A stretch of DNA of 43,503 nt from an uncultured Sutterella sp. (GTDB lineage Bacteria > Pseudomonadota > Gammaproteobacteria > Burkholderiales > Burkholderiaceae_F). Within the stretch, counting starts at the first letter, position 1. Each line of letters starts with the position of its first letter. Below, piece after piece: positions 40,971-43,503 of this stretch. The position numbers were made by a program, and so were the translations under genes. The notes beneath the pieces were generated by a model that was given only the letters and a program-made list of their open reading frames with translations, ran no database searches and was not told the DNA's origin. The stretch lies in the NCBI GenBank assembly GCA_949282745.1, contig CASDQM010000017.1:1-43503 (forward strand), written 5' to 3'.

Positions 40971-41170
40971 GTGAACTCTCCCCAGCCAACGCTTGCGCTT
41001 TTGGCTGGAGCTTCCGGTTTCACAGCCTAGGTGGACACAGGAAGATTTCCCGTGTCCGGCTTAGGCTCCGCCGGCTTCGCAGCTCCGACATCGTCGGCGC
41101 GCATGGATCGGGGCGTCCCACCCCTACCTTGTCCATCGCTCGATTCGCCTTTCTTGCGCATGCGCAAGAG
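40971..41170 (-). ncRNA. Candidate omega RNA (reRNA) of the TnpB element
   Basis: In TnpB elements the guide RNA is made from the 3' end of tnpB and the right end. Here this segment is strongly folded on the minus strand: a GGACAC / GTGTCC hairpin (41033-41057, within the last codons of tnpB), CCGAC-gat-GTCGG just upstream, ATGGA...TCCAT further upstream, and the right-end hairpin CCAGCCAA / TTGGCTGG (40982-41008). The guide would be the flanking minus-strand sequence below 40971, the reverse complement of the torD-like gene end. The 5' limit is an estimate. Confidence 0.5.
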
Positions 41171-42385
41171 ACGCTTTCGTTCTTTGGACTTCTGTTGGTC
41201 ATCAAAAATCTGCTTCACAGCCCGCGAGGCGATGTTCATCGCCGCAACCTGGTCCGCAGTGAGTTGATGATCTTCATTGAAACGGCAGTCGGGGTTCGTG
41301 CAAGCAAAGAGCGCCTGGTCAGGGCGGTTGCTGCTGTGTGTGTGCCCGCATTTCGGGCATTGCTGACTGCTGTAGGCGGCCGGCACGGTAACGACGAGTT
41401 TTCCGTGTCTCAGCGCCTTGTACTGGGCATAAGTTAAAGTGCGACCCCACATGCCCTCGTATTGGATCGCTTTGTGAAGGCCCGCCTTCGCCGCTCGTCC
41501 GTTGGGCAGAGGTTTCCCTGCCTCGTCGTACTTCGGCTTGGGAGCGGCCATCATGTTCTTGATTTTCAGATCCTCAAAGGCAATCACATCCGCATCGGGA
41601 TTGGAAACGAGAGCGTGCGAAGTCTGGTGCGCAAAGTTTTCCCGAACATTGCGCCCGTACGTATGAGCATCGTTGATTTTGCGGCTCGTTTTGCGACTTC
41701 CCTTGCTGTCCCGTTCTTGCCGCGAATGTTTCTTTTGGAGCCTCTTGATGCGCTTGTCCTTGGCGCGCATGCGCTTCTTTTCACTGCGCTTGAGACCAAA
41801 GCCCTCCGTTTGCGTCTGCAGGGGCGTAACAACGCCTCTGTCGCAACCGACCGTACGCGCCAAAAGCTCCTCGGGCGTTTGCATTCTCAAGCGAGCACGA
41901 ATCTCGTCCTCCGTCTCGGGAAAACGATTTTCATCAGATGCCTCAGGCGAACTGAAGGAAACAAAGAGCTTGCTTCCCTTCGTCTTGACATGGACGGAGT
42001 TCGGCATTTCGAAAGAACGGTGCGCCTTGAAGCGGATACGCGCCACCCGACGCCGGTACTTGCCCACGACAAAATTGAGCTCATACCATCTGCCGCCAAG
42101 ATCTTTGATCGTGAAGAGTTCCGATGTAAGCCAGAGACTTCTGTCGGCGGCTTTGATGCGTTTGGTTCTCGGTTTCTGCGTCAAGCCGGATTTGGCACCA
42201 CTGACCGCCTTGATGTAAAGAACCGCTCCGTTTCGCAGTACCTGCCCGGGAACATCCTCCAGCCACTCGATATGGCGCTTCTTCGTATAGGGATCCGTCA
42301 GCAGGTGCGAATACTTCTGATCCGCCTTCGGAATATCCCCTCCGAAGACTTGGTAAACGATAATGTCCTCAGGCTTCCTGGACAC
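41027..42385 (-). CDS. tnpB: RNA-guided nuclease TnpB (OrfB), IS200/IS605 family
   Basis: 452 residues, start GTG at 42385 because an in-frame stop lies just upstream. The RuvC acids are present: Asp182 in 'TVGCDRGVVTP', Glu271 in 'VIAFEDLKIKN' and Asp378 in 'LTADQVAAMNI'. A zinc ribbon (C343-P-K-C346 ... C362-T-N-P-D-C367) sits between the last two. A basic helical bundle ('RSEKKRMRAKDKRIKRLQKK') follows the first acid. With all three acids intact it is likely nuclease-active and not a repressor-type derivative. The last 70 residues after Asp378 are low in complexity and Arg/Lys/Pro-rich and coincide with the structured RNA end. No TnpA lies nearby. Confidence 0.9.
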   Translation of the reverse strand: MSRKPEDIIVYQVFGGDIPKADQKYSHLLTDPYTKKRHIEWLEDVPGQVLRNGAVLYIKAVSGAKSGLTQKPRTKRIKAADRSLWLTSELFTIKDLGGRWYELNFVVGKYRRRVARIRFKAHRSFEMPNSVHVKTKGSKLFVSFSSPEASDENRFPETEDEIRARLRMQTPEELLARTVGCDRGVVTPLQTQTEGFGLKRSEKKRMRAKDKRIKRLQKKHSRQERDSKGSRKTSRKINDAHTYGRNVRENFAHQTSHALVSNPDADVIAFEDLKIKNMMAAPKPKYDEAGKPLPNGRAAKAGLHKAIQYEGMWGRTLTYAQYKALRHGKLVVTVPAAYSSQQCPKCGHTHSSNRPDQALFACTNPDCRFNEDHQLTADQVAAMNIASRAVKQIFDDQQKSKERKRLLRMRKKGESSDGQGRGGTPRSMRADDVGAAKPAEPKPDTGNLPVST

Positions 42386-42926
42386 GTGACTTCATCAGCT
42401 ACCGTTCGTCCGGAAAACTAGTTCTTTAACAACAAGGAAATACGCTTTTCAAAGCATCAGCGGAACAAGGGCTTTGCCCTCTCCGCCTTCGGCGGATTCA
42501 CCCAAGGTTTTTCTAGCCCGTAAGAATACTTTAGATCTGCCGTAACTGCCTGTTTTTACGGGAGTTGTAGACTTGTCTTTGCGTGGATAGGAGAGGTCCG
42601 ACTCCACGTGCCCGCGAGAATGCGCGGAGAGCCAAAGCCCCCGTGGCTTTGGCCCCAAAAGTGTCGGCGGTCACGCCGTCGACACTCCTTCCTCCTGCCG
42701 GCGATGACGTGTTTTGGGTCACCCGGTTCGCTGTGGATGGCATCCGCCTTTTCTTGGGGGACAAAGGGATTGGTGCTGATGATGTGTGATGCCCGTCTTT
42801 GCGTACGGCGCCTCGCCGCAGGCGGGTCGAGCGTCACATCCGTGAAGGGTGAGGGCCTCCTGAGACCCTTGGTCTTTACGGCGTCTAACCGCCAAATGTT
42901 CTAGCACAACATTAAAGGAGGCCCTC
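42386..42926. other. Structured intergenic DNA between the TnpB element and the IS110 recombinase
   Basis: 541 bp without a gene but full of hairpins: TCCGCC-ttc-GGCGGA near 42480-42495, CCCGTAA...TTTACGGG (42518-42563), GCCAAAGC...GCTTTGGC (42631-42653), and AGTGTCG...CGACACT (42660-42686). The left end of IS110 must lie within it. The last 146 bp form the folded leader described separately. Confidence 0.55.
42781..42913 (+). ncRNA. Candidate bridge RNA in the IS110 left-end leader
   Basis: IS110 elements encode a bridge RNA in the non-coding end before the recombinase. This stretch folds as: stem 42781-42786 with 42835-42840 (6 bp plus 4 bp after a bulge) enclosing hairpins CCGT/ACGG and CGCCT/AGGCG; a second stem 42840-42844 with 42877-42881 and inner stem AAGGGT/ACCCTT (42845-42850 with 42865-42870) closing a 14-nt loop; hairpin GGCG-tctaac-CGCC (42880-42893); hairpin AATGTT-ctagcac-AACATT (42895-42913). 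Guide loops cannot be assigned without the other end and target. Confidence 0.5.
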
Positions 42927-42927
42927 A
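42850..42927 (+). promoter_or_regulatory. Loop-to-ribosome-binding-site complementarity in the IS110 leader
   Basis: Loop bases TGAGGGCCTCCT (42850-42861) are perfectly complementary to AGGAGGCCCTCA (42916-42927), which holds the ribosome-binding site and the first base of the start codon. Pairing would block translation of the recombinase. Confidence 0.55.
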
Positions 42928-43503
42928 TGCCAAATCTTAATCAATCTCGCGACTTCACGTACATCATCGGCATCGATATCGCCAAGTCTGTTTTTCAGGT
43001 TTACAGCTGCAACACGCAGACCGGAGAGATCAGCAACGTGCAGATCAAGCGAGCCAAGTTGCTTGAGCATTTCGTCAACCGCGGCAAGTGCCTGATCGGC
43101 ATGGAAGCATGCGGTAGCTCCCAGTATTGGGCTCGAGAGTTCCAGAAACTCGGGCACACCGTTCGGCTCATGGATCCCAAGCGGGTCAAGCCGAACGTCC
43201 GACACAACAAGAGCGACCGAGCTGATGCCGAAGGCATTTACTGGGCCCTGGTGAATGGCGTGCAGGCTGTCGCTGTTCGAAACAACATCGAACAGGACAT
43301 TCACACCTTGTTGACGATGCGTTCGCGACTCATGACGTTGCGAACGGGCAACATCAACCACGTGCGCGGCCTGCTCGCGGAGTACGGTCAGGTCATGCCC
43401 AAGTCGCCGGCCCAGTTCCTCAAGCATGTGAGCGACAGCATCAACAACCTCGAAGGCGAGGTCGACTCGCTCGTCATTGACATGTTCCGCTCGCTCGTCG
43501 AGC
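42927..43503 (+). CDS. IS110-family DEDD recombinase/transposase, 3' end outside window
   Basis: The first 192 residues are visible. The RuvC-like DEDD domain shows 'IIGIDIAKSVFQVYS' (first Asp near residue 17), 'LIGMEACGSSQYWAREF' (Glu near 60), and 'VRHNKSDRADAEGIYWALV' (Asp pair near 104). This is the N-terminal arrangement of IS110/IS1111 recombinases, which join DNA guided by a bridge RNA. The following helix-rich region 'IHTLLTMRSRLMTLRTGNIN' with 'HVRGLLAEYGQVMPKS' matches the linker; the C-terminal serine-containing domain is beyond the window. AAAGGAGG upstream sets the start. The long non-coding leader points to the IS110 rather than the IS1111 group. Confidence 0.92.
   Translation, partial: MPNLNQSRDFTYIIGIDIAKSVFQVYSCNTQTGEISNVQIKRAKLLEHFVNRGKCLIGMEACGSSQYWAREFQKLGHTVRLMDPKRVKPNVRHNKSDRADAEGIYWALVNGVQAVAVRNNIEQDIHTLLTMRSRLMTLRTGNINHVRGLLAEYGQVMPKSPAQFLKHVSDSINNLEGEVDSLVIDMFRSLVE

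Follow-up and report, generated by a model that had tools for sequence, protein, structure and literature searches.

A covarying leader stem predicted to bury the ribosome-binding site of an IS1111-type recombinase gene

In the leader of an IS110-family recombinase gene at the end of the window (the whole stretch of 43,503 nt analysed, contig 17 of the 55 that make up a 2.5-Mb genome), the Shine-Dalgarno sequence (SD) and part of the start codon pair with an upstream anti-SD arm, and both sides of this stem, P1, change together in related leaders. We think it likely that this pairing acts as a translational lock that holds recombinase production down. The first-pass annotation had noticed that a leader loop matches the ribosome-binding site (RBS) and start codon, and had placed the pairing correctly to within a base. 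The features discussed below are listed by position; relatives carry L numbers.

42356..42373, + strand: left terminus of the IS1111-type element, AACGATAATGTCCTCAGG, common to six insertions that diverge at 42356
42359-42364, + strand: predicted -10 (GATAAT) of a circle-junction promoter, TTGACA-17-GATAAT, built from the ends of L002
42363-42373, + strand: left subterminal inverted repeat, part of the left terminus AACGATAATGTCCTCAGG
42588..42622, + strand: second conserved hairpin block of the long left end, with 88.6% identity over 35 nt in L003
42849..42861, + strand: P1 5' arm (anti-SD), from the fold and compensatory partners in L003 and L008
42862..42876, + strand: small hairpin GAGACC-CTT-GGTCTT within the junction, from the fold; not shared among the 20 leaders folded
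42880..42893, + strand: P2 hairpin GGCG-TCTAAC-CGCC, consensus GGCAUC..GUGCC, from fourth-pair variation in 49 leaders
42895..42913, + strand: P3 hairpin AATGTT...AACATT, of variable sequence, from the fold and a swap test on 42 leaders
42916..42928, + strand: P1 3' arm, SD AGGAGG and the first two bases of ATG, from sequence and fold
42927..43503, + strand: IS110-family recombinase gene, PF01548 (E 9.5e-10), full length in L002 (345 aa)

The element and its ends

The contig end cuts the recombinase gene. In L002, a 95% identical copy, the complete 345-aa enzyme carries GLVPMHTGSGGK, which fits GL-P----S(t)G, and this motif together with the PF01548 match identifies the DEDD recombinase of the IS1111 group. 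Six insertions were compared, five in the window's genome (the window's included) and one in L002; because they are alike from 42356 inward and different outside it, we place the left end of the element at 42356. The right end, ...CCTGAGGACATAAG, is present on six contigs of the window's genome. The subterminal inverted repeat, ATGTCCTCAGG at the left end and CCTGAGGACAT at the right ends, is 11 bp long, where 7-17 bp is given for the IS1111 group in the accessible part of one report (PMC11208160). The accessible part of another includes subterminal repeats and a GL-P----SG motif among the marks of the group (PMC11187229). By its repeats and enzyme motif, the window element is a member of the IS1111 group of the IS110 family.

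The non-coding parts of L002, with 576 nt 5' of the ATG and 572 nt 3' of the stop codon, are about equal, which is unusual for the IS1111 group, whose longer non-coding region is the one downstream of the gene; the window element has 571 nt from left end to ATG. Within this long left end, the block at 42588-42622 is kept better in the L003 alignment than the sequence between it and P1. The left end itself sits within the 5' part of a tnpB gene (41027-42385, - strand; PF07282, PF01385), and the left flank of L034, a second copy in the same genome, is likewise tnpB-like by eye. Five left and six right element ends lie at contig ends (C1, C7, C12, C14, C17, C21, C26, C31, C38, C39 and C42), so the element is multi-copy and probably broke the assembly. 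Both relatives from named genomes belong to Sutterella assemblies. Searching viral contigs, once with the L002 protein and once with a leader pattern, gave no relative.

The P1 stem, its fold and its covariation

P1 comprises 13 pairs, 42849-42861 with 42916-42928, with one G-U pair (42849-42928) at the base of the stem. The SD and start codon are thereby paired, in prediction and by covariation, in a conserved stem. The 12-nt perfect complement described earlier, 42916-42927 (AGGAGGCCCTCA) with 42850-42861 (TGAGGGCCTCCT), is real, but the 14-nt loop from which it was said to come gives 11 of the 12 bases, 42850 being the last base of the AAGGGT stem. Strong folding of the leader into nested stems was borne out, at −70.7 kcal/mol vs. 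a shuffle mean of −50.5 (z −5.5; 0/200 shuffles). In the predicted fold, P1 encloses the small hairpin (42862-42876), P2 (42880-42883/42890-42893) and P3 (42895-42900/42908-42913), and it persists in a fold of the 590 nt that begin at the left end. The predicted unpaired probability of the SD bases is at most 0.0003 (0.0 in an 86-nt fold); without the P1 5' arm, the SD remains partly paired in prediction. The lock had first been drawn as a hairpin loop on AAGGGT/ACCCTT reaching the start codon. The predicted fold is instead a nested stem, the AAGGGT/ACCCTT stem is absent from the minimum-free-energy structure, and the kissing-loop form would be an alternative fold. We set it aside, as the small AAGGGT/ACCCTT hairpin is also absent, by eye, from L003 and L008. 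An Rfam scan of the window gave no match at the gathering threshold, and the same scan of 11 relatives gave two matches with E at most 1, both scoring below the cut-off of their family and lying outside the leader.

No dinucleotide shuffle of the leader (0/5,000) reached the observed P1 score of 12.3, nor did any of 1,708 overlapping 125-nt stretches of the window's + strand. Because the best shuffle and the best stretch both scored 12.1, the single match is rare rather than unique.

Related leaders were collected from 172 matching loci in genomes that share the window's genus, family, order, class or phylum. After removal of 16 (short, N, no start or a late-beginning match) and 36 redundant loci, 120 non-redundant leaders were left, with start codons set by rule and not one by one. 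One P1 column changes on both sides among three sister leaders, reading GAGGGCCTCC/GGAGGCCCTC in the window, GAGGGTCTCC/GGAGACCCTC in L003 and GAGGGGCTCC/GGAGCCCCTC in L008, that is, C-G, T-A and G-C; the recombinases of L003 and L008 are 59% and 51% identical to the window's. P1 of L034 is identical to that of the window, and that of L002 keeps the stem apart from a single C-A mismatch within the SD (predicted −34.8 vs. −41.6 kcal/mol).

For the whole set we used a swap test, in which each leader is scored by the best pairing of its SD region (−16 to +3) with positions −125 to −40 and the SDs are then redealt among leaders. This controls for a trivial fit between pyrimidine-rich sequence and any SD, while kinship among leaders stays in. 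Over 120 leaders, own pairs scored a mean of 8.76 vs. 6.30 when permuted (sd 0.12; 0/20,000 permutations), and a first pass on 36 leaders gave 8.09 vs. 6.07 (0/20,000). An own score of at least 9 was found in 58/120 leaders vs. 7.4% of cross pairs; 42/120 scored below 8 and have no good stem. Thus the loop and RBS do covary in related leaders, the check that the first-pass annotation had set, both through compensatory change and in the swap test. P1 was tested by swaps rather than by alignment columns because RNAalifold, given 20 picked leaders in a MAFFT alignment left unadjusted, found P2 alone.

P2 and P3 were examined in aligned leaders chosen by length and P1 score. Alignment A2 holds 49 of the 120 leaders (P1 score at least 8.5, length 80-98 nt) and adds nothing new on P1, because its members were chosen by that score. 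Alignment A1 holds 42 of these 49, omitting the near-duplicates L121 and L128 and the odd-P2 leaders L030, L155, L158, L159 and L162; because five of the seven omitted have an odd P2, we recounted P2 on A2. The fourth pair of P2 is A-U in 31 leaders, C-G in 6, G-C in 6, U-A in 4 and unpaired in 2. Over its four pairs, P2 is 93.4% paired vs. 81.2% in shuffles (0/500), with a covariation score of 0.321 vs. 0.102 (0/500), and the paired share drops to 13.3-56.1% once the partner is displaced by 1-3 columns. Two of five measures on P2 are not clearly set apart from shuffles: further pair types (217/500 shuffles as high) and, weakly, both-side changes (22/500). P3 differs in sequence in most leaders and still pairs with itself better than when swapped (5.54 vs. 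3.91; 0/20,000; 42 leaders, A1 only). The P2 and P3 tests do not depend directly on P1, yet they were run on leaders selected on P1 score.

Guide RNA, inverted repeats and promoters

The leader had also been proposed to be, wholly or in part, a bridge RNA whose loop would in addition repress translation. Bridge-RNA loops match target and donor DNA; the match seen for the loop here is to the SD. The left end is indeed a long one, with 571 nt before the ATG, and as a whole it folds strongly (z −6.3). In the accessible parts of two reports, the bridge RNA of IS110-group elements is encoded in the left end (PMC11208160), and a small number of IS1111 members carry their long non-coding region upstream or carry two of them (PMC11187229). 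The window element, however, has IS1111-type repeats and an IS1111-type enzyme, and for that group the same texts put the guide RNA downstream of the gene: a bridge RNA is predicted in 93.0% of IS1111s and appears to be encoded in the right end (PMC11208160), and the seekRNA of the studied IS1111 elements derives from the region downstream of the gene (PMC11187229). Blocks resembling GTCGAATAAGAA, common to L002, L003 and L010, also sit downstream of the gene; in short-ended relatives the leader fills the left end, and in most of them the right repeat follows the stop codon at a distance of about 220-300 nt. The leader is likely not a bridge RNA, as far as sequence features can tell, and we give the combined guide-and-repressor proposal very little chance. 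A bridge RNA may lie elsewhere in the 571-nt left end.

In each of L002, L003 and L010, GTCGAATAAGAA or a near variant occurs twice downstream of the recombinase gene, with the second copy close to the right end. The motif is similar to the right terminus CATAAG and may be an internal boundary, comparable to the A/B boxes of ISPpu9.

The anti-SD arm is often the inverted repeat itself. Of the loci, 61 have a gene of 280 codons or more that is followed by enough sequence. In 48 of these there is an inverted match of 11-12/12 between leader and downstream sequence, a count made with no chance control and including some matches that look spurious. The match overlaps the P1 arm in 36 of the 48, and in 20/25 where P1 scores at least 9; ATGGACTCCTCC and ATGGTCCGCTCC are each both left repeat and anti-SD arm. 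This overlap would be expected if the copy at the SD served as a DNA site: it would be an additional right repeat that binds the recombinase or marks an internal recombination boundary, and the RNA pairing would be a by-product. The mismatches in P1 bear on the same question. In 93 leaders, C-A mismatches outnumber G-U pairs by 72 to 10 (about seven to one), as expected if wobble is unfavoured; because a pure RNA helix would favour G-U wobble, this excess counts against the RNA reading. A G-to-A change that keeps the SD purine-rich while the repeat fixes the other arm could, we infer, explain the excess, and C-A mismatches perhaps prevent the copy at the SD from serving as a repeat in DNA.

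Against the DNA-site explanation, P2 and P3 covary, and the arm is not the repeat in several lineages that nevertheless pair nearly perfectly. Located ends show the two to be separate in the window's lineage, L010 and L066; inspection by eye or kinship indicates the same for L003, L008, L006, L011, L017 and L057. Nine leaders with the arm apart from the repeat have 98/102 Watson-Crick pairs in the best stretch, a value that is partly high by construction because it was counted in the best-scoring stretch, and in the swap test these nine alone scored 10.39 vs. 6.99 (0/20,000). They were chosen after P1 had been seen, and several are kin (L001/L003/L008; L017/L057). Five others with a separate repeat (L067, L068, L083, L086 and L123) have no good P1. 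Weighing both sides, we regard the DNA-site explanation as unlikely and retain the translational lock.

Whether a transcript carries the whole lock depends on where it starts. Joining right and left ends in silico gave TTGACA-17-GATAAT for L002 and TTGACG-17-GATAAT for L010, with a predicted start at about left-end position 16, so that both P1 arms would be in the junction transcript. Between 42330 and 42940, a stretch that ends before codons 5-8, neither strand has a promoter-like site. For 21 short-ended elements whose arm coincides with the left repeat, the junction promoter is predicted to start transcription 3 nt inside that repeat. In IS1111-type elements, 3 nt lie outside the right repeat. 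Seven nt lie outside the left repeat of IS1111 elements in the accessible part of one report (PMC11187229), and our junctions, hand-picked from overlapping elements, assumed both values; the agreement in 21/21 is partly by construction because the search was confined to the junction.

These starts bear on a further possibility, that the stem gives protection from read-through only, as in IS10 and IS50: host transcripts with the whole arm would be silent, and the element's own transcript, lacking the arm, would be translated. A start 3 nt inside the repeat, as in the 21 picked elements, would remove the outermost pairs from the element's own transcript. Most of the arm would stay in that transcript, however; the predicted start in L002, at about left-end position 16, is far upstream of P1, and 42330-42940 holds no promoter-like site. 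We judge protection from read-through alone to be improbable. Escape of the element's own transcript from the lock is not predicted for the window's element, on junction promoters built in silico.

The repeat and the lock might be combined in one scheme, which we offer tentatively and think less likely than not. The IS1111-type left inverted repeat would be the anti-SD, and the circle-junction promoter would be positioned to start the recombinase mRNA at the arm, so that every message is born locked. The recombinase or the guide RNA would bind the conserved P2 to set the level, and some lineages, the window's included, would have freed the arm from the repeat and kept the lock. If so, 10-12 bases must change together in three places: the left repeat, the right repeat and the RBS.

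Proposed mechanism and known systems

We propose that translation of the recombinase mRNA is kept low by a 5'-UTR RNA domain some 80 nt long, in which P1 closes a junction with P2 and P3. With the SD and the first two bases of the ATG sequestered in P1 by the upstream anti-SD arm, ribosomes would initiate only seldom, which would keep the recombinase and hence transposition low. The lock would act whichever promoter made the message, whether by host read-through or from the circle junction. Because the leader is kept by compensatory change in numerous elements of a single phylum, such control would be a general part of IS1111 elements. A further prediction is that altering the inverted repeats of such an element, with the RBS left as it is, would affect expression as well as recombination.

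Bridge-RNA recombinases are under development as programmable DNA tools; in the literature covered, some of it accessible in part, translational control of such an enzyme is on record for one element, ISPpu9. Among the top-listed titles and abstract openings of the open-licence literature searched, none reported a conserved SD-hiding IS1111 leader or an inverted repeat serving as anti-SD.

The transposase transcripts of IS10, IS50 and IS200 fold so as to hide the transposase SD, and the elements' own transcripts escape the hairpin. The leader described here resembles them as an SD-hiding transposase leader; it differs in that those elements encode other enzymes and in that their own transcripts escape, which is not predicted for the window's element. 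With bridge RNA and seekRNA (of IS110 and IS1111) it shares the element family and the form of a structured non-coding RNA. Those RNAs, however, guide DNA, and in IS1111 they lie downstream of the gene; the accessible parts of the two reports mention no SD-hiding leader (PMC11208160, PMC11187229).

ISPpu9 comes closest. In the accessible part of that study, the 5'-UTR of tnp from this Pseudomonas putida element of the IS110/IS492 family is predicted to bury the RBS, reporter output rose 26-fold when the 5'-UTR was weakened, and translation is favoured by the antisense RNA Asr9, which is proposed to open the 244-nt 5'-UTR (PMC8450116). Compared by description and not by sequence, both are mRNAs of IS110-family recombinases with an RBS-burying 5'-UTR; ISPpu9 has a 244-nt 5'-UTR and Asr9, whereas here neither strand of 42330-42940 has a promoter-like site. 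Because of the ISPpu9 5'-UTR result (PMC8450116), the principle is already known in the IS110 family, and we view the leader as a broad, covarying variant of ISPpu9-type control in which the inverted repeat takes part.
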